Source: Strigamia acuminata
Taxonomy: Eukaryota > Arthropoda > Chilopoda > Geophilomorpha > Linotaeniidae
Length of the DNA stretch: 64,000 nt
Reading direction: 5' to 3'
NCBI GenBank assembly: GCA_949358305.1
Contig: OX442315.1
Coordinates: forward strand, 992,001 to 1,056,000
Program-made: the position numbers and the translations under genes
The notes under the pieces: model-generated
Databases searched by the model: none
Seen by the model: only the letters and a program-made list of their open reading frames with translations
What the model was told of the DNA's origin: nothing
Shown: positions 15,724 to 63,271 of the stretch, piece after piece
Position numbering within the stretch: the first letter of the stretch is position 1
Layout of the letters: the number at the start of each line of letters is the position of its first letter

Positions 15724-15788
15724 AGTTTGACTAATCAGACTATTTTAAATAAACGTATCTTACGGTTTGACATTTGCAAACTATCGAA

Positions 15789-30032: not shown

Positions 30033-30257
30033 TGTTACGCGGTAGAGCCGTACCGTGTATCGGCTGGCTCTGCTCGCTCTGTTTAGGCATTTAATGCAAT
30101 GAATTCTCACTAGACGGCGCTGTGCACCTAATTAGATGCACAGACCGTTCAACTTAGTTGATAGGGGGAATAGGAGTTTACTTACTTGTTAGTGAGTTGA
30201 TTAAGCCAGAGAGCTCAGATCTCTTTTGATTCTCAAACTTTTACCTTCACCTACTAC
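30033..30257 (+). repeat. Gyp-A1 5' LTR fragment
   Basis: Matches the first ~220 bp of the LTR at 50654 except for a 7-bp insertion (ACTTGTT type) near 30185. It ends in CCTACTAC where Gyp-B1 entered. A CTCF-like CACTAGACGGCGCTG lies at 30108-30122. Confidence 0.9.
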
Positions 30258-42867: not shown

Positions 42868-42885
42868 ATCTCGGTAGAACCTCCA
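42868..42885 (-). other. Gyp-B1 primer-binding site (tRNA-Gln-like)
   Basis: Minus strand TGGAGGTTCTACCGAGAT, two bases inside the LTR end. It matches the common metazoan tRNA-Gln 3' end with one transition. Confidence 0.65.
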
Positions 42886-42887
42886 CT

Positions 42888-43350
42888 TGTGACGATTCTA
42901 CTTTTGGGCTAATTTATTAGTCCTTTAAGAGATAGATAATTCGGTTTATACAAGACGTTGCTAAGTTTAGCAACAACCTAACCGAGATAAGCTACGGAAG
43001 CCCTTACAAACATGACTATGTAATCAAGCAGAAATAACTTATGGTTTTAGTGTGACATAACATATTTATTATTAAATACTAACAACAAAAGATGGGTTCT
43101 TGACGCGTGTAAACGGCGGCATCAACTGGTTGAGGATCCGGGCGAAGCCAGAGGGATATGGCTGACTTGCGGCATCGTCACAAACATCGCTACGGAGACG
43201 TATTTGGTCCGCAGCTTGAGTATCTAGTAGTACGAAGCGTCCTTCGTATATTTGGGAATATTCAGCAGAATATTCCATGTTTCAAATGAATAAAAGCAAA
43301 GTGATTATTGGAATATAACAAATGTATTATTATATAAATATTAATTGGGC
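42888..43350 (-). repeat. Gyp-B1 5' LTR, truncated
   Basis: 463 bp that match 30258-30720 exactly by eye, then an abrupt change at TTAATTGGGC into Gyp-A1 gag. About 1.28 kb of the LTR is missing. Confidence 0.9.
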
Positions 43351-44659
43351 GCAGTTCAATACGGATAATCTTCAAGATTTGCAAAATTGGGAATTGCCCG
43401 AACCGGATTTGAAATTTATCGCTACTAGAAAGAAAAGGAACACTGGATCTGAATCTGACACTGAACCTCAGAAGGAAGATAAAGAAGTCCGATCTCAACC
43501 TCAATCAATCCTACAGAAGTTGGATTTCGCTACTCCGTTAATAAAATTAATTCCACAAAAAGGTTTAAAAGAAATAATAAAGACATTTACACCAGTAAAG
43601 ACTAAACCAGTTCCAACACCAATTGAACCAAATTTTCCAAAAATGACATCATCACAGACTCTAACGGACGTATTGACCGACTTGTTGAAGAGTTTGGTAG
43701 TGCAGAAGCGACCTGTTGTCACTTACGATACAGAAAAAGGCAACATCGACCAATGGCTAGTGGCATATGAAGCTACAATAGGAACAGATGATGAGAGAGT
43801 AAAACATCTAGCATTAGCCTTAAAGACTGATGGATTGGCATGGTTTGTGGAACAACTAAAGAAGAATCCGACATGGAAATGGACGGAATGGAAACCACAG
43901 ATCGAGAAAAAATTTAGAAGAAGCCAAGAAAATGTTTATAATACTCTCCACTTTATGAAACATAAAGAGGGTACAGCAGATGCCTTCATGAAGAAAGTCT
44001 TGGCCGAATGTGCGTTTATTCTACCAGAAATGACTGAAACTCAGAAAATAAATTATGTTTACCAGGGTTTGAAGCCTGCAATGCAGAAGATGATGATAAC
44101 AGTATTTCCATCGACGTTAGAAGAAATGGAACAGAGACTTAAATTGTATGAAAGTCACAAAACAGAAGAACCAGCGGATCTACTGCTCACAATGTTCAAA
44201 AAAGTTGTAGATGAAAAGGTGAACCCTACGACAACAGGTATACTGTCTGGAACAGGGGGATCCCCAGTAAGCTACGCCGAGTTATTAGCTGAAAATATCA
44301 AATTAAAACAGCAAAAGCTCGTGAGTGAGTCAGTAGAGCCACAACAATCGGTTCCATTATTCATACAAGGCGAGTGGTATATTCCAGCATCGCAGCGCGG
44401 ACAGAACTTTAGAGGTAGATATAATAGAGGTAGACAGCGGTCAAATAGCAGTCCGACAACAACGCGTTCATGTGGATGTTGGCATCGTTATGGTTGTGAA
44501 CATAACACATCAGCGCCACGGGAGCAACAATCTCAAGAAAATAGAGGGAACCCAAACAACAAAAGGTGGTTTAAGAAGAAAAGGACACAAGGGGGCGGTA
44601 AAACGAACCCTAATCCTAAGCAGAACCCACAACAAGGTCAACAAGAAGAGGAAAACTAG
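43322..44659 (+). CDS. gag: Gyp-A1 Gag with a chimeric 5' end
   Basis: 445 codons. The ATG and first ~10 codons come from the Gyp-B1 LTR; homology to A2 gag starts at about 43352. Capsid-like core from about residue 120: KGNIDQWLVAYEATIG, DGLAWFVEQLKKN, WKWTEWKPQIEKKFRR and KHKEGTADAFMKKVLAE. The C-terminal region is Arg/Gly-rich (GQNFRGRYNRGRQRSN) with an unusual CGCWHRYGCEH cluster instead of a CCHC knuckle, so RNA binding probably relies on the RG motif. The natural A start is unclear: A2 has no ATG before codon 106 of its frame. The stop TAG follows GGAAAAC, next to the -1 pol frame. Confidence 0.85.
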   Translation: MYYYININWAQFNTDNLQDLQNWELPEPDLKFIATRKKRNTGSESDTEPQKEDKEVRSQPQSILQKLDFATPLIKLIPQKGLKEIIKTFTPVKTKPVPTPIEPNFPKMTSSQTLTDVLTDLLKSLVVQKRPVVTYDTEKGNIDQWLVAYEATIGTDDERVKHLALALKTDGLAWFVEQLKKNPTWKWTEWKPQIEKKFRRSQENVYNTLHFMKHKEGTADAFMKKVLAECAFILPEMTETQKINYVYQGLKPAMQKMMITVFPSTLEEMEQRLKLYESHKTEEPADLLLTMFKKVVDEKVNPTTTGILSGTGGSPVSYAELLAENIKLKQQKLVSESVEPQQSVPLFIQGEWYIPASQRGQNFRGRYNRGRQRSNSSPTTTRSCGCWHRYGCEHNTSAPREQQSQENRGNPNNKRWFKKKRTQGGGKTNPNPKQNPQQGQQEEEN

Positions 44660-47600
44660 TGGGTCGGCCACAAAGAAGATGTCACCATCAACAAGGAAGA
44701 TGTTGTCATCCAAAGAAGAAAAGAAAGAATAGAAGAGAGAAGATAATCGTAGTCAAAATGAACATTTCAGAATCTCTATTGGAAATTCCAGTAATAGTGA
44801 ACAACATGGAAGTCAAGGCAGTTATGGACACTGGAGGAAAACGCAATGTTATCAGCGAAGAGCTTGCTGAAGCTTTACAGTTGAAATACCCGCCAAGCCC
44901 AAATATACGATTACAAGGGGTAAGCGGAGAACTCGTGACTCCAATAGGAAAAGCCAAGATGAACATTACAATTGGTGAATTAACATACAGGATCGAGGTC
45001 CTGATTGTTAAAGGATTTCATTATGAATTACTGCTAAGTGACCCATTCATGCTGTTCGCGAAGTGTGTGTTAGACTACGACAAACAAAAAATCTTTGTGG
45101 GCCGAACTAGTGGAAAGGAAGTGTCATTTCCAATGAATAAAACTTTTGTTGATCAGAATTATGTTGCGAGGGTAATGAAGAACATCACAATTCCACCAAT
45201 GCATGAGTGCATTGTTCCCATCTATTTGAATAAAGCAATAACATTGGACATGTTTGTACAACCATTGCATAATGTTACTGATAGATTTGCTGTGATAGGT
45301 TGTAAAACTTTAACAGATTTCAAGAACGGAAAAGGCATCATTCGAGTGGCTAACCCAACCAAGAAGACAGTCTTTCTGAAGGAGAAGTCAGCAATCGCAA
45401 AAGCTTATTATGTGGTTGATGTTGGGGTGTTTGATGAAAAACAGGTACACTGTTTTGACTTTGACTCCTCAATAGCAAAAGACAAAATGAATAAAGACCA
45501 ACAAGAGCAAATCCGACAACTTCTTCAAAAGAATCAAGACAGATTTGCTGTTTCTGACAAGGATTTGGGAAGAGTTCAAGTGTATAAGCATAAAATCGAT
45601 ACTGGAGACCATGACCCAATACATTTGCAACCGTATCGTCGTTCTATGAAGGAAAAAGAAGTCGAAGCAGAGGAAACAAAGAAATTGCTTGATATGGGAG
45701 TGATAAGGGAATCAGAAAGTCCCTGGAGCGCGCCTGTATTGCTAATAAAGAAAAGAGATGGTAAGTGGAGATTTTGCGTTGATTGGAGACGTTTGAATGC
45801 GATAACAAAGAAAATGGTGTACCCATTGCCAAGAATAGATGACATTTTAGATCAGCTGGCAGGTGCACAGTTCTTCTCCATGATGGATCTTATTCAAGGA
45901 TATTATCAAGTCGAAATAGATGAACAAGATCGTGAAAAAACAGCGTTTACCACTTCAAGCGGACATTTTGAGTTTAACGTCCTAGGAATGGGATTATGCA
46001 ATAGTCCAGCAGCTTTTCAAAAGTTAATGAATAAAGTTTTAGGCAACCTCCTAGGCAAAGTTTGTATAGCGTACATTGACGACCTTATCATTTTCTCTAA
46101 AACATTCGATCAGCATTTGAAAGATCTAGATAACGTTTTCGACAAGCTTAGACAATCTAACTTAAAGGTGAAGTTGAGCAAGTGCACATTTGGGACGAAC
46201 ACCATCAAGTATTTGGGACATGTAGTGGACTCCGAGGGTATATCACCAGACCCAAGGAATCTGGAATCCGTCGCAAAGTTTCCAGTTCCTACTAACCTCA
46301 AACTTCTTCGAGGATTCATAGGGCTCTGTTCGTATTACAGGAAGTTCATTCCAGGTTTTGCGGACATATCCAAGCCCTTAGTCAATTTGACGAAGAAGGA
46401 CGAGAAATTTGATTGGGGCCCACCTCATGACAAGGCCTTCAAAACATTGAGGACCGCCCTTATCACCGTGCCAGTGCTTGCGCACCCTAATTTTGAAGAA
46501 CCCTTCATGGTATCGACAGACGCGAGCGCATATGGTCTTGGAGCAGTGTTGAAACAGAAGATAAACAAACAAGAACATGTGATAGCTTATGCCAGCAGAC
46601 TTCTCAGCCAAGCAGAACAGAATTACACAGCCACAGAAAGGGAATGTCTGGCTATTCTGTTTGGAATTGAAAAGTACCGACCTTATCTGTATGGTAAAAA
46701 GTTCCAGATAATTACAGACCATTCGGCACTCCAATGGCTAAAATCAGTCAAAAACCCCAATGGCAGACTAGCTAGATGGAGCCTACAGCTAGTAGACTTT
46801 GATTTCGATGTGATCTACAAGAGCGGAAAAGCGCACAAAGATGCCGACGCCTTGAGTAGAATTCCAGAAGATTTAAGCGAGGAAGAAAACGAAATAGTTC
46901 CCTCACTTTTACTCGGACAGCTCGACCTTCCTGCTGAGCAGCGTAAGGACAAGAAGCTACTGGAATTGATCACCGCAATGAATCAAGTAGAGCAACTTCC
47001 GAAGAAGAGAAGACGTCCTCTAAAGCAGTTCGTCCTTCTCGACAATGTGTTGTTTAGGAAGAAAAATTCTTTGAATTCCCTAGACACGGAAGTAAATCTG
47101 TTATATGTTCCGCAGCATCTAAAAACTGACGTACTTCAGGAAATGCATGACGGACTGACGGGTGCTCACTTGGGCCTAAACAAAACATGGAAGAGAATGA
47201 GAACAAGATTCTTCTGGCCCCGGATATATAAAGACGTTAGAAATTACGTACTTTCTTGTCCACATTGCGCGAGCTCGAAATCAATGACGACAGCGCCAAA
47301 AGGTTTAATGCAGCCGTGGTCTACGATATCTAAGCCTTTCGAGAGGATTGGAATCGATACACTGGGAAGTTTTCCGACCTCCGACAAGGGCAACAAGTAT
47401 GTTTTCGTAATGACAGATTATTTGTCGCGGACAGTGATTGCTAGAGCAGCTCCAGCATCAACAGCGTTGGAAGCAGCTAGAACCTTGCTTTATGAGTTAA
47501 TGTTGAAGGAAGGCAGTCCGAGAGAAATCCTGAGCGATAGAGGCACAGAATACAGAAACAAAATGGTGGAAGAAGTATCAAATATGTTTAAAGCCCTACA

Positions 47601-48006
47601 CAAAACCACTTCAGGGTACCATCCAAGGACCAATGGACTTACTGAGCGTTTTAATGCGACGTTTGCAAAAATGTTGCAGATTTATGTTGATAAGGACCAG
47701 AGGGACTGGGATGATTTTTTGCCATTTTTGCTTTTCTCGTATAATACCGGTGTGCACGAGACGACAGGATATACACCTTATTATCTTTTGAAAGGATATG
47801 AAGTTGATTTGAACGTGGACGTAAACCTCAACTTACCTCAAAAAGAATTTACCTTGCGAACCTCAAAATTCATCAGAGAAGCTAGGAAGATAGCAAATGA
47901 AAGGTTGGAATGGCAAGGAGAAAAAAGCAGAAAAAGATTCGATCAAGGCCGAGTTCATGTGGAATTTGACCCAGGAGAGTTAGTATATCTCAAAACACCC
48001 AATTGA
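44659..48006 (+). pseudogene. pol: Gyp-A1 Pol, truncated by a nonsense codon
   Basis: Open in the -1 frame relative to gag from the gag end for 1115 codons, then TGA at 48004-48006 where A2 has AGA (Arg1116). Before the stop all core domains are intact: protease MDTGGKRNVIS, RT with YIDD near 472-475, RNase H STDASAYGLGAVL, integrase zinc motif and the DDE residues (near 900, 960 and 996). The stop removes the GPY/F module and tail, so integrase would probably be impaired. Apart from this the copy differs from A2 by few residues. Confidence 0.9.
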
Positions 48007-48603
48007 AAAGTTGGGTTAAGTGAAAAACTCCTGCCACAATTCTCAGGCCCATACGAAATAGTAAGAAGAACCGCGCCAAATGACTACGAAATTAGAAGTT
48101 CAAATGGAAAGAAAACAGATATTGTTAACATTGAACGATTAAAACCGTATAAACCCAGAGAAGAAATTCCAGCGGAGATATTAGAAGAATTGACAGCTAA
48201 AAAAGTCACATTTGCTGATGAAACTGCAACACAAAGTGAAAAACAACAAGAAATTGAAGAAAACACGTCAATTTCGCCAATTCCAATCGCTAAAGAACGA
48301 TTCATTAGCGATGACGATCAAATTTCGTTAAAAACACTCTTTGAACCTGAAGAAAATGCAATAAAAACGTCAAATTTCCCAATTCCAAGTGAAAAAGAGC
48401 GATTAAAAGCGCTCTATGGACCGAAAGAAATTATGGAAAGATGGCAAAACGAAGACGAACGGAAAAACGAAGGAAATCAACTGCGAAAACCGCCGACAGG
48501 TGTCGCTGACGCAGTCGATGACGCGTCGCCACCTGAAATCGAGAGTTTCCGGTCACGTCGCCTTCGCAAACAGTCTCGTCGTGACTACAGTGGATTGTGT
48601 TAA
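48007..48603 (+). pseudogene. Gyp-A1 Pol 3' remainder after the nonsense codon
   Basis: The same frame is open for another 198 codons and matches the end of A2 Pol: the FSGPYEIVRR module and an acidic then basic tail ending DYSGLC. It confirms that only one base change broke the ORF. Confidence 0.9.
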
Positions 48604-49019
48604 GGTTTTCTGAGACGAACCGGGTTTACTGTGTGACTCAAAGAAACCTAAAGCATTAATAACAGCAGCTGAGTTGATTTGTGTGTGATTCCGTAAGTGA
48701 AAGAGTGGATTTTGAACGAATTTGGCGAACAAATAGCTTAAAAACGAAACGAATCTATCGCGAATTCTGTGAGAAAATAACATCGCGAAATGGAAATTTA
48801 GGCTTAAATAATTGTGTTAAATCTTCGAAATGAAATTTTAGTGTGTGCATATATTATCAAGTGACTAATTAGTTGAAGAATTGTTAAATTTAGTATAATT
48901 TAGTGCAACATGAAATGTTATATGAAATAATGAATGGAAATTGGAATAATTTTGTGAAAATTTTGAATCAATGAATTAATTTATTTTATTTTCTTTTCAA
49001 ACAATATATTAGAATCCGA
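48604..49019 (+). other. Gyp-A1 spacer between pol and third ORF
   Basis: AT-rich, no ORF. A pyrimidine-rich run followed by AATATATTAG ends about 8 bp before the ATG at 49020 and could be a splice acceptor. Confidence 0.45.
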
Positions 49020-50234
49020 ATGGACGAAATGGCAAGCAAATTTGATCGGATGGATGTGCGTAGTGACAGTGACAGGAAGGCAGAGGAAGATAAAAAGAAA
49101 TATGCAGGACCATTAACAAAGGGTGAAGAAGGCTTATTGCGTCGTCGTCGTAAGAATCGACAATTGAAACGAGATAAGAAAGCACAAAAGAAGAAAGTGT
49201 TTGACGAGCAATCGAAAAGGATCCGGGAAGAAGAAATGCGTCACACCGTTGATCGAAACAAACGCCGATTAGATGATTTGCGAATGGAGCACCGGAATAT
49301 GGTCAACGCCATTAGAGCCAGGAAATTAAAAGGAGTGATGGGATTGCCCGACTATCAGTTGTGGAGAACAGGGGCGAATGCTTTGCTGATCCAGGAGGCG
49401 AAGATAAGAAAAAACATTCTAAAAGCCATCGCCCTAGCGAGAAGAGAGTCCTTCCAGGACCCTAGTGTAGTATTTCCTACTCCTATACGGGTATACCGTG
49501 TGGAGTTGGACGCTGCACGACAGGTCCAGGCTCTCGGACTTGCATTAGATTATAGTAATGCGCCAAAATACGACTTAGCATTCGACGCCGTAGGATGTCC
49601 GCCGATTAAAGTCATGAACTATCAGATGGCAGCATTAGGCGACCTAACGCCGGGACGACAGAGCTGGACGTATGACAGCGTCGTTGATCACTACCTCCAA
49701 CTGTTAGAAGAGCGATATCCCATATTGGCACCATTTCAATCTGAGTGGGTCTTCAAAATGGTGGACCCAGCTAAACGAAAGGAAGCGATCTATTGGCTAA
49801 TGAAGAGACTTCCAAGTGCTCAAAAGAAGATTTGGGTGTTTCCAGTTCCTATTGAAGAGCATTGGCAGCTTTTCATGGTGGATTGGCGGAAAAAGCCAAC
49901 CCAATACGTGCTTTATGACCCAAACGGACCAATAGAGCGCACATATCCAAAGTGGGAATCTTTAAGGTACTCGTTGATGGATGCAGGAGTAAAGTTTCCA
50001 AACAAATTCATACGTTGGGACCCGCCACGTATGCACCAATTGGATAATGACAGCTGTGGCCCAACCATACTCTACTTCATTAGAAGATACGTTGAAGACC
50101 GTGACTTAATGCAGTTTGGGGAGCCATGTGAGTTACGCTTACGATTTGTGTACGAGATTGCAAATCGTGAAATTCTCCCATTCGAATTGATCAAGGAAGA
50201 AGATAAGAAGGATCAAGCGGAAGGAGGAGAGTGA
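49020..50234 (+). CDS. Gyp-A1 third ORF: Ulp1/C48-like cysteine protease
   Basis: 404 codons, intact, ATG start. Residues 34-90 are strongly basic and coiled (LLRRRRKNRQLKRDKK), a probable nuclear or RNA-binding segment. Residues about 215-360 form a peptidase C48 (Ulp1/SENP, SUMO-protease) domain: the entry helix SWTYDSVVDHYLQLLEERYP, then His281 in EEHWQLFMVDW, Asp300 in VLYDPNG, Gln340 in MHQLDNDSCG and Cys346. Spacings are H-19-D-40-Q-6-C; yeast Ulp1 is H514, D531, Q574, C580. All four catalytic residues are present, so it may be active as a SUMO or ubiquitin-like protease. It could mature Gag/Pol or deconjugate host proteins; neither is shown. An adenain-type (C5) protease is less likely given the Q-x5-C-G pattern. 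Confidence 0.85.
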   Translation: MDEMASKFDRMDVRSDSDRKAEEDKKKYAGPLTKGEEGLLRRRRKNRQLKRDKKAQKKKVFDEQSKRIREEEMRHTVDRNKRRLDDLRMEHRNMVNAIRARKLKGVMGLPDYQLWRTGANALLIQEAKIRKNILKAIALARRESFQDPSVVFPTPIRVYRVELDAARQVQALGLALDYSNAPKYDLAFDAVGCPPIKVMNYQMAALGDLTPGRQSWTYDSVVDHYLQLLEERYPILAPFQSEWVFKMVDPAKRKEAIYWLMKRLPSAQKKIWVFPVPIEEHWQLFMVDWRKKPTQYVLYDPNGPIERTYPKWESLRYSLMDAGVKFPNKFIRWDPPRMHQLDNDSCGPTILYFIRRYVEDRDLMQFGEPCELRLRFVYEIANREILPFELIKEEDKKDQAEGGE

Positions 50235-50642
50235 AGTGAACTTTAACTTCTTTAAGTGAATAAGTGTAAAATCAACACGAACTTTGAACATTTTTTTTTT
50301 TTTGTGTGTGTTTTTTTTATTTTATAGAAAATTGAAAACTGGAGAGAAAAAAAAAAAGTAATATAAAACAAAAAACCAAAAAGTGTTATCATTGATGAAA
50401 AGTGTTAATTTTATTTAATTTTAAACTTTGAATATTGTTTCCAATGTAAAAGTGTAATAAAAAGTGATTGTGACATTTATAAACATTGAAAAGTGTGTTA
50501 TATTATATTTTTGTAAAAATAAGGATGATGGAAAGAGATTCTCAAAATTGTAAAATTGAGTTTATGATTTGAATTTTTTTAATGTGAAAGGAGATGCGTT
50601 AGTTAGAACAATTCATTGTTTTTCGAGAGACCGAAAAAATTA
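50235..50642 (+). other. Gyp-A1 3' untranslated region
   Basis: AT-rich with T- and A-runs, no ORF. The A2 counterpart (60555-60950) is nearly the same. Confidence 0.6.
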
Positions 50643-50653
50643 AAGGGGGGGGC
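50643..50653 (+). other. Gyp-A1 polypurine tract
   Basis: AAGGGGGGGGC immediately before TGTTACGCGG. Confidence 0.8.
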
Positions 50654-51155
50654 TGTTACGCGGTAGAGCCGTACCGTGTATCGGCTGGCTCTGCTCGCTC
50701 TGTTTAGGCATTTAATGCAATGAATTCTCACTAGACGGCGCTGTGCACCTAATTAGATGCACAGACCGTTCAACTTAGTTGATAGGGGGAATAGGAGTTT
50801 ACTTAGTGAGTTGATTAAGCCAGAGAGCTCAGATCTCTTTTGATTCTCAAACTTTTACCTTCACCTACTACTGCCAGCCGGTTGATGGTCAGGCAGGACT
50901 AGGTTTCCTAAATTGAATTGAATTGACAACAGCATCATCCTTATTTAGTTATTTATTTGATTTGAATGAATGATTTATATTTTAGGTTAATAAATGAACA
51001 AATGTAATAAGAGCTGTTGACCGAACATTTACATTAGTAAATGTCCGACTTTGAACAATAAAGCCAATAGGCATTTTACATATAAAACCCTGTGTCATTC
51101 TTGATTAAATTCATGTCACGTAGGACTAAATCAATCCCCATTTAGCCACGTAACA
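50654..51155 (+). repeat. Gyp-A1 3' LTR
   Basis: 502 bp, TGTTACG...CGTAACA, followed by TSD ATAT. A CTCF-like TCACTAGACGGCGCTG lies at 50728-50743. Confidence 0.92.
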
Positions 51156-51159
51156 ATAT

Positions 51160-52269
51160 AACGGTCGTATACAGTACGACCTTGCTAAATGAAAGTAGGT
51201 CCCTCAGCTAACTGGCCTCAGTCCGCTGCAGGATGGCTGTTGTAAACAGCCCACGCAGGTTCCCGTCTTTCTACGATTGGTCCTTCCGCTCGTTAAAGGT
51301 CGGTAAAGGCCTAATGCACAGGTGACACGCCGGGTTGGTAGCCCGTGAGTAATATCTTCAGATGTTGCGAGAAACAACTACCTGGATAATGGTAATCCAA
51401 CGGCAGTGGCCGATTAATATTTTACCCGGTGCTCGATCAGTGGATCCCGCCATCGTAAGGCATGCTGGCGGATGGAGGAGTCAAATCCTCCCGCGATGGT
51501 TCTCTCGACCGTCGTGACGGTCCCCGCCCCATTGTACCCTCCGGGTTAGTAACCCGTGAACGATATATAAAATATGTCGTGTTAAACAAATTACTCGGGC
51601 ATTGGTAACCCTGTATTGGCAATATCTTTTAAACCCGGTAAGTCCATAGAAATGTTTACCTGGTGGTTGGTACCACCGATAGCGAGTTAAAGCACACAAT
51701 TAAATACTCGGCGCCTGATCACGAGATCTTGTCGTCGTAAGGCATGCTGGCGGATGGAGTCTCAACAACTCCCGCGACGTTCTCTCAATTGTCGTGACGG
51801 TCCCCGCCCAATTAATATTTATACAACAATTCATTTGTTGTATTCCACTAATTACTTTACTTTTATTCATTTGGAACATGGAATATTCTGCTGAATATTC
51901 CTATTTATGCGAAGGATTCTTCGCATTATTAGATACTCGAGCTGCGGACCAAATACGTCTCCGTAGCGATATTTGTGACGATGCCGCAAGTCAGCCGTAT
52001 CCCTCTGGCTTCGCCCGGATCCTCAACCAGTTGATGCCGCCCGTTTACACGCGTCAAGAACCCATCTTTTGTTGTTAATATTTAGTAATAAATATGTTAT
52101 GTCACACTAAAACTGTAAGTTACTTCTACTTGATCACATATTCATGTTTGTAAAGGCTTCCGTAGCTTATCTCGGTTAGGTTGTTGCTAAACTTAGCAAC
52201 GTCTTGTATAAACCGAAAGTATCTATCTTAAAAGGACTAATAAATTAGCCCAAAAGTAGAATCGTCACA
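51160..52269 (+). repeat. Gyp-B2 5' LTR, remainder
   Basis: Resumes the LTR interrupted at 30032 and ends GAATCGTCACA. Hairpin modules at 51451-51530 (stem GGAGGA with TCCTCC) and 51734-51810 (stem GGAGT with ACTCC), and CGGGTTACTAACCCG-type small stems around 51330 and 51545. Confidence 0.9.
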
Positions 52270-53808: not shown

Positions 53809-54302
53809 TGTTACGCGGTAGAGCCGTACCGTGTATCGGCTGGCTCTGCTCGCTCTGTTTAGGCATTTAATGCAATGAATTCTCACTAGACGGCGCTGTG
53901 CACCTAATTAGATGCACAGACCGTTCAACTTAGTTAATAGGGGGAATAGGAGTTTACTTAGTGAGTTGATTAAGCCAGAGAGCTCAGATCTCTTTTGATT
54001 CTCAAACTGTTACCTTCACCTACTACTGCCAGCCGGTTGACGGTCAGGCAGGACTAGGTTTTCCTGAATTGAATTGAATAAACAACAGCATCATCCTTAT
54101 TTGATTTGAATGAACCATTTATGTGTTTTAGGTTTAATAAATGAACAAATGTAATAAGAGCTGATGACCGAACATTTACATTAGTAAATGTCCGACTTTG
54201 AATAATAAAGCCAACAGGCATTTTACATATAAAACCCTGTGTCATTCTTGATTAACTTCATGTCACGTAGGACTAAATCAATCCCCATTTAGCCACGTAA
54301 CA
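53809..54302 (+). repeat. Gyp-A2 5' LTR
   Basis: 494 bp, TGTTACG...CGTAACA, CTCF-like motif at 53883-53898. Confidence 0.95.
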
Positions 54303-54304
54303 AC

Positions 54305-54318
54305 TGGTGGAGATGCGG
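54305..54318 (+). other. Gyp-A2 primer-binding site (tRNA-Ala-like)
   Basis: TGGTGGAGATGCGG, two bases inside the LTR, complementary to the insect-type tRNA-Ala 3' end (...CCGCATCTCCACCA). Confidence 0.7.
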
Positions 54319-54844
54319 TCTCGATTGTGGCCCGTTTAGAATTAAAATCCCATTAAAATTGGATTAAAATTGCCAAAATAATTTAATAAAATTCTAGAAA
54401 TAAAAACTTGAAAATTGCTGATTTTATAGCAATTATCTTGAATGACTCAGAGTTGGTAAAAACAAGTGAAGTCACAGCTTGAATATTTAATGTCATTGTG
54501 TGAAATAATTTGCATTTTGGAAATGAAAATAGAGTTTAATTGTTTATTAGGGATTAATAAATTGATTTACAATTGTTATATTTAGAATAAATAAAATATA
54601 TAGTGTATAAATACTAATTTTGATATTTATTTACAGGAAATTTTGTGAATTTATAGGAATTGAAAAATTGTTTTGAAATGTTATTGTTGGATTATTTTCT
54701 TTGTAATTTTGAGTGTAATATTTATGTATTATATGCTAATAACACTTTAAGTTTTCAGGGAATGAATTCGTGTTAGTGTATTCAGTGTTTAGAAAGAGAT
54801 TAGTGCTAGTGAAGTGAATAAAAAGGGCAATATAAGGCTTCATA
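54319..54844 (+). other. Gyp-A2 5' leader
   Basis: AT-rich, no ORF or conserved stem recognised. A1 lost this segment, so no comparison is possible. Confidence 0.5.
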
Positions 54845-56176
54845 GTGGATAAGCCAGTGAAATTGTCACAATTCAACTTGGATAATCTTCAGGATCTACA
54901 AAATTTGCAGTCACCTGAACCAAATTTGGAAAATATCACCACTAGAAGAAGTAAAAACGCTAAATCCGAATCTGGCACTGAACCTCAGAAGGAAGATAAA
55001 GAAGTCCGATCTCAACCTCCATCAATACTACAGAAATTGGATTTTGCAACTCCAGCAATAAAATTAATTCCACAAAAAGGTTTAGAAGAAATAATAAAGA
55101 CATTTACACCAGTAAAAACTAAACCAGTTCCAACCCTAATTGAACCAAATTTTCCAAAAATGACATCATCACAGACTCCAACGGACGTATTGACCGACTT
55201 GCTGAAGAGTTTGGTAGTGCAGAAGCGACCTGTTGTCACTTACGATACAGAAAAAGGCAACATCGACCAATGGCTTGTGGCATATGAAGCTACAATAGGA
55301 ACAGACGATGAGAGAGTAAAACATCTAGCATTAGCCTTAAAGACTGATGGATTGGCATGGTTTGTGGAACAATTAAAGAAGAATCCGACATGGAAATGGA
55401 CGGATTGGAAACCACAGATCGAGAAAAAATTTAGAAGAAGCCAAGAAAATGTTTACAATACTCTCCACTTCATGAAACACAAAGAGGGTACAGCAGATGC
55501 CTTCATGAAGAAAGTCTTGGCCGAATGTGCGTTTATTCTGCCAGAAATGACTGAAACTCAGAAAATAAATTACGTTTACCAAGGTTTGAAGCCTGCAATG
55601 CAGAAAATGATGATAACAGTATTTCCATCAACGTTAGAAGAAATGGAACAGAGACTTAAATTGTATGAAAGTCATAAAACAGAAGAACCAGCGGATCTAC
55701 TGCTCACAATGTTCAAAAAAGTTGTAGATGAAAAGGTGAACCCTACGACAACAGGTATACTGTCTGGAACAGGGGGATCCCCAGTAAGCTACGCCGAGTT
55801 ACTAGCTGAAAATATCAAATTAAAACAGCAAAAGCTCGTAAGTGAGTCAGTAGAGCCACAACAATTGGTTCCATTATTCATACAAGGCGAGTGGTATATT
55901 CCAGCATCGCAGCGCGGACAGAACTTTAGAGGTAGATACAACAGAGGTAGACAGCGGTCAAATAGCAGTCCGACAACAACGCGTCCATGTGGATGTTGGC
56001 ATCGTTATGGTTGTGAACATAACACATCAGCGCCACAGGAGCAACAATCTCAAGAAAATAGAGGGAACCCAAACAACAGAAGGTGGTTTAAGAAGAAAAG
56101 GATACAAGGGGCTGGTAAAACTAACCCTAATCCTAAGCAGAACCCACAACAAGGTCAACAGGAAGAGGAAAACTAG
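54845..56176 (+). CDS. gag: Gyp-A2 Gag
   Basis: 443 codons in the open frame, almost the same as A1 gag from codon 12 on. The frame opens just after a TAA and has no ATG until codon 106 (55160, MTSSQTPTDV). Either Gag starts at 55160 (338 residues, which keeps the whole capsid core and RG-rich tail), or a non-AUG codon such as the GTG at 54845 is used, or splicing supplies the start. Strong conservation of the upstream 105 codons between A1 and A2 favours translation of the longer form. No CCHC knuckle; CGCWHRYGCEH is at about 383-393. Confidence 0.85.
   Translation: MDKPVKLSQFNLDNLQDLQNLQSPEPNLENITTRRSKNAKSESGTEPQKEDKEVRSQPPSILQKLDFATPAIKLIPQKGLEEIIKTFTPVKTKPVPTLIEPNFPKMTSSQTPTDVLTDLLKSLVVQKRPVVTYDTEKGNIDQWLVAYEATIGTDDERVKHLALALKTDGLAWFVEQLKKNPTWKWTDWKPQIEKKFRRSQENVYNTLHFMKHKEGTADAFMKKVLAECAFILPEMTETQKINYVYQGLKPAMQKMMITVFPSTLEEMEQRLKLYESHKTEEPADLLLTMFKKVVDEKVNPTTTGILSGTGGSPVSYAELLAENIKLKQQKLVSESVEPQQLVPLFIQGEWYIPASQRGQNFRGRYNRGRQRSNSSPTTTRPCGCWHRYGCEHNTSAPQEQQSQENRGNPNNRRWFKKKRIQGAGKTNPNPKQNPQQGQQEEEN
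56167..56173 (+). promoter_or_regulatory. Gyp-A possible -1 frameshift site G GAA AAC
   Basis: Just before the gag TAG, with pol in the -1 frame. Only the A-site half (AAAAC) fits the slippery rule, so this is weaker than in Gyp-B and Gyp-D. The same heptamer is in A1 at 44650-44656. Confidence 0.4.
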
Positions 56177-59100
56177 TGGGTCGGCCACAAAGAAGATGTC
56201 ACCATCAACAAGGAAGATGTTGTCATCCAAAGAAGAAAAGAAAAAGTAGAAAAGAAAAGATAATCGTAGTCGAAATGAACATTTCAGAATCTCTATTGGA
56301 AATTCCAGTAATAGTGAACAACATGGAAGTCAAGGCAGTTATGGACACTGGAGGAAAACGCAATGTTATCAGCGAAGAGCTTGCTGAAGCTTTACAGTTG
56401 AAATACCCGCCAAGCCCAAATATACGATTACAAGGGGTAAGCGGAGAACTTGTGACTCCAATAGGAAAAGCCAAGATGAACATTACAATTGGTGAATTAA
56501 CATACAGGATCGAGGTCCTGATTGTTAAAGGATTTCATTACGAACTACTGCTAAGTGACCCATTCATGCTGTTCGCGAAGTGCGTATTAGACTACGACAA
56601 ACAAAAAATCTTTGTGGGCCGAACTAGTGGAAAGGAAGTGTCATTTCCAATGAATAAAACTTTTGTTGATCAGAATTATGTTGCGAGGGTAATGAAGAAC
56701 ATCACAATTCCACCAATGCATGAGTGCATTGTTCCCATCTATTTGAATAAAGCAATAACATTGGACATGTTTGTGCAACCATTGCATAATGTTACTGACA
56801 GATTTGCTGTGATAGGTTGTAAAACTTTGACAGATTTCAAGAACGGAAAAGGCATCATTCGAGTGGCTAACCCAACCAAGAAGACAGTCTTTTTGAAGGA
56901 GAAGTCAGCAATCGCAAAAGCTTATTATGTGGTTGATGTTGGGGTGTTTGATGAAAAACAGGTACACTGTTTTGACTTTGACTCCTCAATAGCAAAAGAT
57001 AAAATGAATAAAGACCAACAAGAGCAAATGCGACAACTTCTTCAAAAGAACCAAGACAGATTTGCTGTTTCTGACAAGGATTTGGGAAGAGTTAAAGTGT
57101 ATAAGCATAAAATCGATACTGGAGACCACGAACCAATACATTTGCAACCGTATCGTCGTTCTATGAAGGAAAAAGAAGTCGAAGCAGAGGAAACAAAGAA
57201 ATTGCTTGATATGGGAGTGATAAGGGAATCAGAAAGTCCCTGGAGCGCGCCTGTATTGCTAATAAAGAAAAGAGATGGTAAGTGGAGATTTTGTGTCGAC
57301 TGGAGACGTTTGAATGCGATAACAAAGAAAATGGTGTACCCATTGCCAAGAATAGATGATACTTTAGATCAGCTGGCAGGTGCACAGTTCTTCTCCATGA
57401 TGGATCTTATTCAGGGATATTATCAAGTCGAGATAGATGAACAAGATCGTGAAAAAACAGCGTTTACCACTTCAAGCGGACATTTTGAGTTTAACGTCCT
57501 AGGAATGGGATTATGCAATAGTCCAGCAGCTTTTCAAAAGTTAATGAATAAAGTTTTAGGCAACCTCCTAGGCAAAGTTTGTATAGCGTACATTGACGAC
57601 CTTATCATTTTCTCTAAAACATTCGATCAGCATTTGAAAGATCTAGACAACGTTTTCGACAAACTTAGACAATCTAACTTAAAGGTGAAGTTGAGCAAGT
57701 GCACATTTGGAACGAACTCCATTAAGTATTTGGGACATGTAGTGGACTCCGAGGGTATATCACCAGACCCAAGGAATCTGGAATCCGTCGCGAAGTTTCC
57801 AGTTCCTACTAACCTCAAACTTCTTCGAGGATTCATAGGGCTCTGTTCGTATTACAGGAAGTTCATTCCAGGTTTTGCGGACATATCCAAGCCCTTAGTC
57901 AATTTGACGAAGAAGGACGAGAAATTTGATTGGGGCCCACCTCATGACAAGGCCTTCAAAACATTGAGGACCGCCCTTATCACCGTGCCAGTGCTTGCGC
58001 ACCCTAATTTTGAAGAACCCTTCATGGTATCGACAGACGCGAGCGCATATGGTCTTGGAGCAGTGTTGAAACAGAAGATAAACAAACAGGAACATGTGAT
58101 AGCTTATGCCAGCAGACTTCTCAGCCAAGCAGAACAGAATTACACAGCCACAGAAAGGGAATGTCTGGCCATTCTGTTTGGAATTGAAAAGTACCGACCT
58201 TATCTGTATGGTAAGAAGTTCCAGATAATTACAGACCATTCGGCACTCCAATGGCTAAAATCAGTCAAAAACCCCAATGGCAGACTAGCTAGATGGAGCC
58301 TACAGCTAGTAGACTTTGATTTCGATGTGATCTACAAGAGCGGAAAAGCGCACAAAGATGCCGACGCCTTGAGCAGAATTCCAGAGGATTTAAGCGAGGA
58401 AGAAAACGAAATAGTTCCCTCACTTTTACTCGAACAGCTCGACCTTCCTGCTGAGCAGCGTAAGGACAAGAAGCTACTGGAATTGATCACCGCAATGAAT
58501 CAAGTAGAGCAACTTCCGAAGAAGAGAAGACGTCCTCTAAAGCAGTTCGTCCTTCTCGACAATGTGTTGTTTAGGAAGAAAAATTCTTTGAATTCCCTAG
58601 ACACGGAAGTAAATCTGTTATATGTTCCGCAGCATTTGAAAACTGCAGTTCTTGAAGAAATGCATGACGGACTGACGGGTGCTCACTTGGGCCTAAACAA
58701 AACATGGAAGAGAATGAGAACAAGATTCTTTTGGCCCCGGATATATAAAGACGTTAGAAATTACGTACTTTCTTGTCCACATTGCGCGAGCTCGAAATCA
58801 ATGACGACAGCGCCAAAAGGTTTAATGCAGCCGTGGTCTACAATATCTAAGCCTTTCGAGAGGATTGGAATCGATACATTGGGAAGTTTTCCGACCTCCG
58901 ACAAGGGCAACAAGTATGTTTTCGTAATGACAGATTATTTGTCGCGGACAGTGATTGCTAGAGCAGCTCCAGCATCAACAGCGTTGGAAGCAGCTAGAAC
59001 TTTGCTTTATGAGTTAATGTTGAAGGAAGGCAGTCCGAGAGAAATCCTGAGCGATAAAGGCACAGAATACAGAAACAAAATGGTGGAAGAGGTATCAAAT

Positions 59101-60120
59101 ATGTTTAAAGCCCTACACAAAACCACTTCAGGGTACCATCCAAGGACCAATGGTCTTACAGAAAGATTCAATGCGACGTTTGCAAAAATGTTACAAATTT
59201 ATGTTGATAAGGACCAGAGGGACTGGGATGATTTTTTGCCATTTTTGCTTTTCTCGTATAATACCGGTGTGCACGAGACGACAGGATATACACCTTATTA
59301 TCTTTTGAAAGGATATGAAGTTGATTTGAACGTGGACGTAAACCTCAACTTACCTCAAAAAGAATTTACCTTGCGAACCTCAAAATTCATCAGAGAAGCT
59401 AGGAAGATAGCAAATGAAAGGTTGGAGTGGCAAGGAGAAAAAAGCAGAAAAAGATTCGATCAAGGCCGAGTTCATGTGGAATTTGATCCAGGAGAATTAG
59501 TATATCTCAAAACACCCAATAGAAAAGTTGGGTTAAGTGAAAAACTCCTACCACAATTCTCAGGCCCATACGAAATAGTACGAAGAACCGCGCCAAATGA
59601 CTATGAAATTAGAAGTTCAAATGGAAAGAAAACAGATATTGTTAACATTGAACGATTAAAACCGTATAAACCCAGAGAAGAAATTCCAGCGGAAATATTA
59701 GAAGAATTGACAGCTAAAAAAGTCACATTTGCTGATGAAACTGCAACACAAAGTGAAAAACAACAAGAAATTGAAGAAAACACATCAATTTCGCCAATTC
59801 CAATCGCTAAAGAACGATTTATTAGCGATGACGATCAAATTTCGTTAAAAACACTCTTTGAACCTGAAGAAAATACAATAAAAGTGTCAAATTTCCCAAT
59901 TCCAAGCGAAAAAGAGCGATTAAAAGCGCTCTATGGACCGAAAGAAATTATGGAAAGATGGCAAAACGAAGACGAACGGAAAAACAAAGAAAATCAATTG
60001 CGAAAACCGCCGACAGGTGTCGCTGACGCAGTCGATGACGCGTCGCCGCCTGAAATCGAGAGTTTCCGGTCACGTCGCCTTCGCAAACAGGCTCGTCGTG
60101 ACTACAGTGGATTGTGTTAA
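56176..60120 (+). CDS. pol: Gyp-A2 Pol: protease, RT, RNase H, integrase (full length)
   Basis: 1314 codons in the -1 frame to gag; the listed first codon is GTG, so entry by frameshift is likely. Protease VMDTGGKRNVIS (Asp57; the usual Ala after DTG is Gly). RT: FCVDWRRLNAIT, LGMGLCNSPAAFQ, YIDD at 472-475. RNase H: STDASAYGLGAVL, Asp621. Integrase: His830/His837 with Cys867/Cys870, Asp900 (GIDTLG), Asp960 (LSDKGTEY), Glu996 (NGLTERFN). GPY/F module: FSGPYEIVRR at 1128-1137. An acidic then Arg-rich tail follows. All catalytic residues are present. The signatures differ clearly from Gyp-B and Gyp-D, placing Gyp-A in another Ty3/Gypsy lineage. Confidence 0.97.
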   Translation: MGRPQRRCHHQQGRCCHPKKKRKSRKEKIIVVEMNISESLLEIPVIVNNMEVKAVMDTGGKRNVISEELAEALQLKYPPSPNIRLQGVSGELVTPIGKAKMNITIGELTYRIEVLIVKGFHYELLLSDPFMLFAKCVLDYDKQKIFVGRTSGKEVSFPMNKTFVDQNYVARVMKNITIPPMHECIVPIYLNKAITLDMFVQPLHNVTDRFAVIGCKTLTDFKNGKGIIRVANPTKKTVFLKEKSAIAKAYYVVDVGVFDEKQVHCFDFDSSIAKDKMNKDQQEQMRQLLQKNQDRFAVSDKDLGRVKVYKHKIDTGDHEPIHLQPYRRSMKEKEVEAEETKKLLDMGVIRESESPWSAPVLLIKKRDGKWRFCVDWRRLNAITKKMVYPLPRIDDTLDQLAGAQFFSMMDLIQGYYQVEIDEQDREKTAFTTSSGHFEFNVLGMGLCNSPAAFQKLMNKVLGNLLGKVCIAYIDDLIIFSKTFDQHLKDLDNVFDKLRQSNLKVKLSKCTFGTNSIKYLGHVVDSEGISPDPRNLESVAKFPVPTNLKLLRGFIGLCSYYRKFIPGFADISKPLVNLTKKDEKFDWGPPHDKAFKTLRTALITVPVLAHPNFEEPFMVSTDASAYGLGAVLKQKINKQEHVIAYASRLLSQAEQNYTATERECLAILFGIEKYRPYLYGKKFQIITDHSALQWLKSVKNPNGRLARWSLQLVDFDFDVIYKSGKAHKDADALSRIPEDLSEEENEIVPSLLLEQLDLPAEQRKDKKLLELITAMNQVEQLPKKRRRPLKQFVLLDNVLFRKKNSLNSLDTEVNLLYVPQHLKTAVLEEMHDGLTGAHLGLNKTWKRMRTRFFWPRIYKDVRNYVLSCPHCASSKSMTTAPKGLMQPWSTISKPFERIGIDTLGSFPTSDKGNKYVFVMTDYLSRTVIARAAPASTALEAARTLLYELMLKEGSPREILSDKGTEYRNKMVEEVSNMFKALHKTTSGYHPRTNGLTERFNATFAKMLQIYVDKDQRDWDDFLPFLLFSYNTGVHETTGYTPYYLLKGYEVDLNVDVNLNLPQKEFTLRTSKFIREARKIANERLEWQGEKSRKRFDQGRVHVEFDPGELVYLKTPNRKVGLSEKLLPQFSGPYEIVRRTAPNDYEIRSSNGKKTDIVNIERLKPYKPREEIPAEILEELTAKKVTFADETATQSEKQQEIEENTSISPIPIAKERFISDDDQISLKTLFEPEENTIKVSNFPIPSEKERLKALYGPKEIMERWQNEDERKNKENQLRKPPTGVADAVDDASPPEIESFRSRRLRKQARRDYSGLC

Positions 60121-60950
60121 GGTTTTCTGAGACGAACCGGGTTTACTGTGTGACTCAAAGAAACCTAAAGCATTAATAACAGCAGCAGTTGATTTGTGTG
60201 TGATTCCGTAAGTGAAAGGAGTGGATTTTGAACGAATTTGGCGAACAAATAGCTTGAAAACGAAACGAATCTATCGCGAATTTTGTGAGAAAATAACATC
60301 GCGAAATGGAAATTTAGGCTTAAATAATTGTGTTAAATCTTCAAAAATGAAATTTTAGTGTGTGCATATATTATCAAGTGACTAATTAGTTGAAGAATTG
60401 TTAAATTTAGTGTAAATTAGTGCAACATGAAATGTTAAATGAAATAGTGAATGGAAATTGGAAAAATTTTGTGAAAATTTTGAACCGTGAAATTCTCCCA
60501 TTCGAGTTGATCAAAGAAGAGGATAAGAAAGATCAAGCGGAAGGAGGAGAGTGAAGTGAACTTTAACTTCTTTAAGTGAATAAGTGTAAAATCAACACGA
60601 ACTTTGAACATTTTTTTTGTGTGTGTGTTTTTTTTATTTTATAGAAAATTGAAAACTGAAAAAAAGTAATATAAAAATAAAAAACCAAAAAGTGTTATCA
60701 TTGATGAGAAGTGTTAATTTTATTTAATTTTAAACTTTGAATATTGTTTCCAATGTAAAAGTGTAATAAAAAGTGACTATGACATTTATAAACATTGAAA
60801 AGTGTGTTATATGATATCTTTGTAAAAATAAGGATGATGAAAAGAGATTCTCAAAATTGTAAAATTGAGTTTATGATTTGAAAATTTTTTTAATGTGAAA
60901 GGAGATGCGTTAGTTAGAACAATTCATTGTTTTTCGAGAGACCGAAAAAA
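60121..60950 (+). other. Gyp-A2 3' region with deletion scar of the third ORF
   Basis: Matches A1 from 48604 to about 48967, then jumps at about 60487 to the last ~20 codons of the Ulp1-like ORF (counterpart of 50166 onward). Start codon, catalytic domain and the presumed acceptor are all lost. The rest matches the A1 3' UTR. Confidence 0.9.
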
Positions 60951-60964
60951 TTAAAGGGGGGGGC
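60951..60964 (+). other. Gyp-A2 polypurine tract
   Basis: TTAAAGGGGGGGGC directly before the 3' LTR. Confidence 0.8.
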
Positions 60965-61458
60965 TGTTACGCGGTAGAGCCGTACCGTGTATCGGCTGGC
61001 TCTGCTCGCTCTGTTTAGGCATTTAATGCAATGAATTCTCACTAGACGGCGCTGTGCACCTAATTAGATGCACAGACCGTTCAACTTAGTTAATAGGGGG
61101 AATAGGAGTTTACTTAGTGAGTTGATTAAGCCAGAGAGCTCAGATCTCTTTTGATTCTCAAACTGTTACCTTCACCTACTACTGCCAGCCGGTTGACGGT
61201 CAGGCAGGACTAGGTTTTCCTGAATTGAATTGAATAAACAACAGCATCATCCTTATTTGATTTGAATGAACCATTTATGTGTTTTAGGTTTAATAAATGA
61301 ACAAATGTAATAAGAGCTGATGACCGAACATTTACATTAGTAAATGTCCGACTTTGAATAATAAAGCCAACAGGCATTTTACATATAAAACCCTGTGTCA
61401 TTCTTGATTAACTTCATGTCACGTAGGACTAAATCAATCCCCATTTAGCCACGTAACA
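60965..61458 (+). repeat. Gyp-A2 3' LTR
   Basis: 494 bp, no difference seen from 53809-54302; CTCF-like motif at 61039-61054. Confidence 0.95.
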
Positions 61459-61462
61459 ATAT

Positions 61463-63271
61463 AGAAATAAAAATGCACAACCTCCTCGTCAAGATCAGTC
61501 GAATTTGACACCAGGAGATTTTAATCGTGCTTTCCAACAACGATTACGAGCGAATAACTTCGCTCGCAACCAACAAAGAGGATTTACAAATCCAGAGAAC
61601 TTTGAGAATACGTTCAACAGAGCGAATTTGGGTCCGCCTAATATGGCCAACCCTAATCCAAGTTTTCCAAACGGGTCAAATAGTTGTCCGAATCTCGCTG
61701 GAAATTTGAACCCAAATTTAGGTGCGACAAGAGGTCCAAACCGCCGTTTTGACCCAAATTCTAGATTTGCAAACAATTCTAGTCCAGCACCTAACAGGCA
61801 AAGGGGTCACCCAGTTCCTCCGAACTCGAATAACCCAGTTGATATGAATGATTTAAATAATCCTTCTAATCCGGAGACGCAAGGAGATTCCAATAATTAT
61901 TTGAATCACGGTACACCAAGCAATTCGAACAATCGTCCGAATTTTGGTGGCCCAGGAAGCTTGAACAACCGTCCGAACTTTAACAATCGGAGTAATTCTA
62001 ATAATCATTCGAATTATGGGAACCAAGGTAATTCGAATAACCATTCGAATTTTGGTAACCACAGTAGACCAAATCGAGGGTCGAATACTTTCAACCCCAA
62101 CAATGGTGGCTCAAGTCAAAATAACTCGAGTCAATCAAACACTGGTGGGTCGTCGAATGACCATTCACGTCCTCCAAGCAGCTTTGGAATGACGGCTGAT
62201 GACCTCGCGTCAATTGCCACAACCATGCATAAATTAATGCAGGCTGGAAAAAGTTCCGCCATTGTCCCTCAAACTAACAGTTTGAAGCCCCCAGATATTC
62301 CTGTATTCTCTGGAAAGGCAGATGAAAGCGAACGCTTTCTCACTATCGTAAAAAATGTCGCTTTCCTGCGAAACATGTCACTCGATGACATGCTTGTTAA
62401 AGGCGTTGCTGGTTATCTAACCGAGCAAGCACATGGTTGGTTCCATGAAAGGAGAGGAGATTTCATATCTTGGGAAGTATTTGAACAGGCGTTCAAAGAA
62501 AGGTTTGTAGCCACTCGACAAGAGCGGACGAATCAATTAACGAAATTAAGACAACTGGAAACAGAAAGTCTTTACGACTTTATGCACAAATATTACCAGT
62601 TATGGATATTGCAAGACAGTCTTGATGCAAAAGGGGCTGGATGTCTTTTTATCGGGAGTGTAACTCCTGCTAACGATTTGCTTTTGCATACGCAAGGCAT
62701 AGCGGATTTACCTCTGACAGAGATTTATACCGTTATAACGAAAAATAAAGGTCTGTACAGTCGTACAGCTAATGGAGTAAAGGAAAATAATTCCAATCCA
62801 GTTGTTTTCCCACCTCGGAAAACAGACACTCGTCCTCAGTTGAAGACAAATGTTAAATCCTTAACTTTGGATTCACAAGAACAACTTAATATTTGTGAGG
62901 CCGTTTATTTAATAAATGGAGTAGTAGATCAGACCAGACGTGGTCAATTAGTTTGTTATAACTGTAAGCAGCCCGGACATATGCGTCGGGAGTGTACAAA
63001 TCCAAAACCACGCACAAATTTCAACTCTGAAGAGTTACAAAAACGTGGTACTCCGGATTCCCCGACTGTGGATCCGACTTCTAAACGACCTAATAATAGG
63101 TGGATAACTCAAGAAGTGTTGGATGCAACACTAGATGCTAAACTTGATGCGAAATTAAATACTTTTGAAAATAAGTTACAAACTTCGCTGACCAACTCGT
63201 TGGCAGAAATGGTCAAAACTTTGATCAAGCCCGAATCGACAGATTCAAGTGCTACTAGTTCAAAAAACTAG
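61463..63271 (+). pseudogene. gag: Gyp-B2 gag, 3' part
   Basis: Continues in phase from 53808 after removing Gyp-A2 and one ATAT, starting RNKNAQPPRQDQ as in B1. It contains the Asn-rich repeats, the capsid-like region (IPVFSGKADESERFL) and the CCHC knuckle CYNCKQPGHMRREC. Relative to B1 it has small in-frame indels in the Asn-rich part and lacks the EELPEECEA-type stretch. It ends SSKN-stop on AAAAAAC TAG. Before A2 inserted this gag was complete. Confidence 0.93.
63262..63268 (+). promoter_or_regulatory. Gyp-B2 -1 frameshift heptamer A AAA AAC
   Basis: Same heptamer and stop context as B1. The -1 frame is open from 63259 into pol. Confidence 0.8.

Follow-up and report, generated by a model that had tools for sequence, protein, structure and literature searches.

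We examined a 64,000-nt stretch of the Strigamia acuminata genome (contig OX442315.1, positions 992,001 to 1,056,000; the window below is this whole stretch). A Ty3/Gypsy-type retrotransposon in it, Gyp-A1, has a third open reading frame (ORF3) between its Gypsy-type pol and its 3' long terminal repeat (LTR). A sequence profile and a predicted fold support the assignment of the ORF3 product as a divergent C48 cysteine peptidase of the SENP1/SENP2/Ulp1 branch, placed behind a helical basic N-terminal domain. An earlier note on this DNA, made from its letters alone, had reported a Ulp1-type gene on a Gypsy element; the observation is confirmed and its interpretation supported. The parts of Gyp-A1 and ORF3, in window positions, are as follows.

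43363–51156, forward strand: Gyp-A1, a 5'-truncated Ty3/Gypsy-type element with ORF3 (delimited by blastn against Gyp-A2)
43322–44659, forward strand: gag frame of Gyp-A1; its initial codons come from the adjoining Gyp-B LTR
44659–48603, forward strand: pol of Gyp-A1, with aspartic protease, reverse transcriptase (RT), RNase H and integrase (Pfam)
48983–49012, forward strand: pyrimidine tract with a terminal AG that resembles a splice acceptor, 7 nt upstream of the ORF3 start codon and the best-scoring in the pol-ORF3 spacer
49020–50234, forward strand: ORF3, predicted Ulp1/SENP-like cysteine protease gene, 404 amino acids (aa)
49020–49493, forward strand: N-terminal part of ORF3, with a conserved MDEMAxKFDRMD start, an acidic/Ser stretch and a basic helical region (alignment)
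49494–50177, forward strand: predicted catalytic domain of ORF3 (residues 212–439 of the relative L005, about 159–386 of the window copy)
49860–49865, forward strand: His281-Trp282, putative catalytic His and tunnel-type Trp (His in 14/16, Trp in 16/16 aligned ORF3s)
49917–49919, forward strand: Asp300, putative catalytic Asp (16/16)
50037–50039, forward strand: Gln340, putative oxyanion-hole Gln (16/16)
50055–50057, forward strand: Cys346, putative catalytic Cys (16/16)
50654–51156, forward strand: 3' LTR of Gyp-A1, 94.3% identical to the Gyp-A2 LTR, with a G-rich polypurine tract before it and ATAT after it

The pol domains of both Gyp-A1 and its sister copy Gyp-A2 follow the order protease, RT, RNase H and integrase (Pfam), which is that of Ty3/Gypsy elements. 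The Ty3_capsid matches of their gag frames are weak, with E-values of 6.7e-4 (Gyp-A1) and 7.3e-4, under the curated Pfam cut-off. Gyp-A1 has no 5' LTR, being interrupted by a Gyp-B LTR (42879–43351), and its pol is broken by a premature stop at 48004–48006; the Gyp-A2 counterpart is open over 1314 aa.

Assignment of ORF3 to the C48 peptidases

The four putative catalytic residues stand where the earlier note had placed them, in the C48 order His, Asp, Gln, Cys and with a Gln-Cys spacing of 6. The alignment comprises 16 ORF3s, including the window copy. Trp residues of Ulp1/SENP proteases line the tunnel that holds the Gly-Gly tail, and tunnel-type Trp residues are kept in ORF3 as well: W335 in 16/16 sequences and W269 in all 15 that cover the position.

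Single-sequence searches of Pfam and the PDB were too weak alone for a decision. A profile built from the 16 aligned ORF3s, when run against PDB sequences (hmmsearch), matched SENP1 at 6.1e-11; the NEDD8 protease was not among its matches at E-values up to 1. The catalytic domain is predicted to adopt the Ulp1/SENP fold, and its structure alignments with SENP1, SENP2 and Ulp1 show about 12–21% identity. In the structure ranking, the Z-scores of SENP1/2 and Ulp1 exceed that of the NEDD8 protease by about 3 to 4.5 units.

As for the rest of the protein, ORF3 is 457 aa long in 27 of the 29 other close copies fetched; by alignment, an in-frame deletion has removed about 53 aa from the window copy close to the N-terminus, including most of the acidic/Ser stretch (near 49074). 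The basic N-terminal region mentioned in the earlier note was found as a basic helical stretch in the alignment and in the structure model of L005, in which residues 53–214 are predicted to be helical (pLDDT, the model's own confidence score, 82.9). A search for matches to this part gave nothing above noise.

Copies, losses and selection

The genome (G000; 237.5 Mb in 157 contigs) was searched with four ORF3 queries, and after merging of hits within 2 kb, ORF3-related sequence was found at at least 133 distinct places; some of these are fragments, and the searches scored the best candidates only, so the true copy number may be higher. Forty-five matches have at least 90% identity, of which 38 are stop-free, and many of the remaining ones lie at about 40–48%, 36–38% or 32–35% identity to the window copy. 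ORF3 recurs in a wider Gypsy lineage: at 9 of the 17 diverged loci for which 6 kb of upstream sequence was fetched, a pol related to that of Gyp-A2 lies upstream, mostly 67–77% identical to it. ORF3 itself, as judged from the aligned sequences, is diverging much faster than pol: Gyp-A2 shares 74% pol identity with L047 and 69% with L038, and L005 shares 37% and 32% ORF3 identity with the same two.

Two further groups of relatives were observed. Six ORF3-like stretches, three with equal scores, lie within about 110 kb at C1:47.990–48.099 Mb and may be a local duplication or a domesticated cluster. Relatives at C91:9221, C145:107800, C5:11836174 and C13:7491688 have equal 409-aa open frames, 58% identical to L051, and form a further subfamily.

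Gyp-A2 and its parts, together with a further LTR piece in the window, are as follows.

53809–61459, forward strand: Gyp-A2, sister of Gyp-A1, nested inside Gyp-B2, with ATAT at both flanks
53809–54303 and 60965–61459, forward strand: LTRs of Gyp-A2, 495 bp, identical to each other
54845–56176, forward strand: gag of Gyp-A2 (weak Ty3_capsid match, under the cut-off)
56176–60120, forward strand: pol of Gyp-A2, 1314 aa, with a p58-type C-terminal integrase domain (Pfam)
60486–60554, forward strand: ORF3 remnant in Gyp-A2, the final 22 codons and the stop
30033–30259, forward strand: piece of a Gyp-A LTR, 96–97% identical to Gyp-A LTRs

Gyp-A2 has the marks of an LTR element, with TGGTGGAGATGC after the LTR (primer-binding site), a G-rich tract before the 3' LTR and ATAT flanks. 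In blastn comparison, 43363–48967 of Gyp-A1 corresponds to 54880–60484 of Gyp-A2 (97.2%) and 50163–51160 to 60483–61463 (94.3%); no counterpart exists in Gyp-A2 for 48968 to about 50165, that is, about 1.2 kb comprising nearly all of ORF3. The remaining ORF3 tail encodes the same peptide as in Gyp-A1, all four nucleotide differences being synonymous; 4 of the 29 close full-length copies have exactly this tail DNA, and the peptide is the same in 28 of the 29. Because Gyp-A2 retains this tail codon for codon, the sequences indicate that ORF3 came first: it is ancestral to the pair and was lost from Gyp-A2. For the same reason, the idea that Gyp-A2 represents an ancestral state without ORF3 was rejected. 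With regard to insertion sites, the sequence after the 3' LTR (window 61460 and 51157; L001–L054) starts with ATAT in 37 of 43 distinct flanks, with GTAT in 5 and with ATTC in 1; the 5' flanks of Gyp-A2, L037 and L040 likewise end in ATAT, which points to a 4-bp target duplication with a strong target preference.

In a survey of RTs, the best 106 of 3972 candidates were scored, 54 at 95% identity or more and 52 at 88–90%. An ORF3 match lies 2.0–2.5 kb downstream of 39 of the 54 closer RTs, and, conversely, a listed RT lies upstream of 39 of the 45 ORF3s with at least 90% identity. Within the window subfamily, ORF3 is present in 31 of the 36 copies whose frames span at least 1300 aa, versus 8 of 18 with shorter frames. 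The group at 88–90% differs in that long open frames are often not followed by ORF3: a match within 9 kb downstream was found for 10 of 25 copies with 1353–1360-aa frames, 1 of 15 with 1310–1314-aa frames and 2 of 12 with shorter ones. In total, 54 RT copies (15 at 95% or more, 39 at 88–90%) had no ORF3 match; the counts concern the full ORF3, three of these copies were read, and an ORF3 may have gone unlisted in some of the remaining 51.

The copies read carry different deletions. In L054/L055, a copy with a 1360-aa frame, the spacer and the ORF3 start codon join in frame to the C-terminal end, from about L005 residue 377; the fused tail, on the reverse strand of L055, covers the region that in ORF3 has the Gln and Cys, without the His and Asp, and is possibly a short leftover peptide. 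In L056, of the 1310–1314 group, only sequence from about L048 residue 413 onward is left, frameshifted. Gyp-A2, L054/L055 and L056 hence represent three different ORF3 deletions, each with the tail retained and with a long open pol frame. The converse also occurs: L040, whose 573-bp LTRs are identical, keeps an open ORF3 of 456 aa and is missing some of gag and almost the whole of pol, and L037, with LTRs 99.65% identical, is reduced to LTR, primer site and an ORF3 truncated at its N-terminus.

At the level of codon substitutions, ORF3 is shown to be under purifying selection. The ratio of nonsynonymous to synonymous substitution rates (dN/dS), which the earlier note had proposed as a check, was calculated for 17 ORF3 pairs that share sequences and are hence non-independent; it is 0.05–0.18 in 11 pairs, and synonymous divergence (dS) is saturated in five. 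Among 27 close copies, the nonsynonymous/synonymous variant rate ratio is 0.098, and the Asp, Gln and Cys are invariant across ORF3s down to about 30% identity. The remaining pair, L041 (5704–7089, forward strand) and L046 (2501–3868, reverse strand), are relatives in which Ser replaces the catalytic His and whose 6 kb of upstream sequence gave no pol match; their dN/dS is 0.88 on a dS of 0.024. ORF3s with an intact active site are conserved, and from this one pair, constraint seems to be lifted where the active site is lost.

Possible functions of ORF3

Our favoured reading is that ORF3 belongs to a Ty3/Gypsy lineage as a true third gene and encodes a C48 peptidase that is made from a spliced RNA, removes SUMO, acts at least partly in trans and counters silencing; as a whole we give it slightly less than an even chance. 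The first step would be translation from a spliced, env-like RNA via the acceptor-like site just before the ATG. The best pyrimidine tract with AG lies 5–55 nt before the ORF3 ATG in seven of eight elements (spacers of 379–931 nt), which suggests an env-like spliced subgenomic RNA. The protein would then deconjugate SUMO, or a modifier like it, from its substrates, and at least some of its action would be in trans, given that ORF3-free copies with a long open pol exist alongside pol-less copies that have ORF3, and that such copies are numerous or have identical or nearly identical LTRs. Its targets would most likely be host proteins whose SUMOylation silences transposons, making ORF3 an anti-silencing factor; this is the least certain step. 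SUMO is needed for heterochromatic transposon silencing in several organisms and has a role in silencing by PIWI-interacting RNAs; moreover, some pathogens deploy SUMO proteases against their hosts, and the plant VANC proteins are anti-silencing proteins. More tentatively, ORF3 might be a diffusible, anti-silencing deSUMOylase that a community of related elements uses as a shared good, in which case gag-pol elements with independent ORF3 deletions would live off donors, and pol-less ORF3 elements would be the converse.

Several observations weigh against this reading. The Asp of the WxxD motif, which we take to be a SUMO-contact position in Ulp1/SENPs, is retained in only 10 of 15 ORF3s. The PF02902 score is 13.2 for the window ORF3 and 11.8 for L005, under the curated cut-off of 20.7, which is a detection threshold and not a biochemical trait; at E-values up to 1, single-sequence matches were obtained for 12 of the 16 ORF3 relatives (best 1.2e-4), and the 29 PF02902 matches in the genome all lie away from the ORF3 places. 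Thus, of the C48 similarity by which the earlier note was to be judged, the part from profile and predicted fold stood, while the single-sequence PF02902 part did not. Fold alone leaves the substrate undecided, the clan also including deNEDDylases and deubiquitinases. As for expression, the acceptor-like sites score 0.89–1.0 and the control, the best site in the 500 nt after ORF3, reaches 0.78–0.83; L034 breaks the pattern, and the eight elements represent four subfamilies and are non-independent. In the window subfamily, copies without ORF3 tend to have a broken pol, so there they resemble decayed elements more than successful cheaters. ORF3-free copies also fit the simplest competing reading, namely that ORF3 is just not needed, although the low dN/dS speaks against its being useless. 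Finally, nothing points directly to a silencing target, which is preferred from knowledge of the pathway and from the trans pattern and is the least certain part.

The strongest alternative, which we nevertheless consider rather unlikely, is that ORF3 is a deSUMOylase or ubiquitin-like-modifier protease acting on the Gag, integrase or particle of its own element (assembly, nuclear import or integration) instead of on silencing factors. ORF3 sits and usually moves together with gag-pol, and a divergence in step with pol subfamilies would fit a partner within the element. However, ORF3 is missing from Gyp-A2, whose two LTRs are identical and whose gag and pol are open, and the numerous match-less copies with long open pol at 88–90% RT identity make a need in cis unlikely; supply in trans could rescue this alternative.

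Somewhat less probable again is an enzyme with a SENP fold and another substrate, such as NEDD8, ubiquitin or an unmodified protein; the Z-score lead of SENP1/2 and Ulp1 over the NEDD8 protease, the lack of the latter among the profile matches and the two retained tunnel-type Trp residues all argue against it. Of the three functions put forward in the earlier note, maturation of Gag-Pol is now the least likely: a second maturation protease, comparable with adenain-type proteases on viral polyproteins, is improbable because pol already contains a retroviral-type aspartic protease and ORF3-deleted copies can keep a long open pol, and the nearest folds are SUMO proteases rather than maturases. 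It is still less probable that ORF3 is a captured passenger or dispensable relic of no benefit to the element: copies without the full ORF3 are common and the three read have different deletions, but dN/dS is low in 11 pairs, the Asp, Gln and Cys persist to about 30% identity, and 38 of the 45 close copies are stop-free. Host DNA fallen by chance into one Gypsy copy, the refuting case named in the earlier note, has practically no probability left and is itself refuted, since despite the absence of ORF3 from Gyp-A2 the tail there matches codon for codon, at least 133 genomic places hold ORF3-related sequence, usually behind pol, and ORF3 lies within 7 kb downstream of the 39 of 54 closer RT copies.

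If the more tentative shared-good reading is true, an LTR retrotransposon system would be disarming SUMO-dependent silencing, with division of labour and cheaters in one genome. A SENP-like enzyme on a constrained, multi-subfamily retrotransposon would offer a natural test of whether transposons counter-attack via SUMO, and one genome with ORF3-plus, ORF3-minus and ORF3-only copies allows a direct view of sharing and cheating among transposons.

Neighbouring genes and known systems

Two other Gypsy-type families in the window also have an ORF after pol. That of Gyp-B1 (32754–34286, reverse strand) encodes 510 aa with a basic start, a CxxC-rich middle and an acidic end, with no match of weight in Pfam and no match in the PDB. 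In a third family, gag (15774–18332) and pol (18773–22633) are followed by an 842-aa ORF (23290–25818, forward strand), for which no Pfam or PDB match of weight was found. Elsewhere in the genome, the 29 non-ORF3 PF02902 matches lie on several contigs; six of them have 1075-aa and two 1828-aa open frames, with equal scores, and these may be Ulp1-bearing transposons.

Compared with SENP1, SENP2 and yeast Ulp1 of the C48 family, ORF3 is encoded by a retrotransposon, has a helical basic N-terminus with no match, and scores below the single-sequence Pfam cut-off where seen. Feldmannia viruses are large DNA viruses of algae, and VANDAL and Kaonashi are names given to Ulp1-bearing Mutator-like elements. 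The top matches among predicted viral structures were Feldmannia Ulp-like proteins (FirrV-1-E3 and two Feldmannia species virus proteins; E-values 9.6e-7 to 1.5e-5), with root-mean-square deviations of 12–18 and only part of the fold aligned with ORF3.

Ulp1-like domains are already known in non-LTR and DNA transposons, and the Ty3/Gypsy ORF3 setting appears new within a limited literature search of titles and abstract beginnings, in which no Ty3/Gypsy element with a Ulp1 gene was found; the part of PMC6338049 available to us has no mention of Ulp1. The nematode retrotransposons NeSL and Utopia-1_TSP (PMC4640811) resemble Gyp-A1, by description, in carrying a Ulp1-like cysteine protease; unlike it, they are non-LTR elements in which the domain is N-terminal in the RT protein, whereas ORF3 is a separate ORF of an LTR element. 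Ginger1 DNA transposons combine a Gypsy-type integrase with a Ulp1 or OTU domain (PMC2836005), but they are cut-and-paste elements with these domains C-terminal in the transposase and without RT or LTRs. Mutator-like elements share a transposon-borne Ulp1 domain with the present element and are DNA transposons without reverse transcription (PMC2836005).

As accessory genes, there are parallels in other LTR elements. In bdelloid rotifers, the third ORF of LTR elements is likewise a non-env enzyme that is missing in some families; it encodes a GDSL esterase or DEDDy exonuclease and shows no significant departure from neutrality (PMC5408684), in contrast to the dN/dS of 0.05–0.18 in 11 ORF3 pairs here. 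The MDG1-group sORF1 and sORF2 are, as ORF3, accessory LTR-element ORFs with low nonsynonymous rates and disrupted in some families (PMC11952523); they differ in being short and upstream of gag, with sORF2 a fusogen-like membrane protein.
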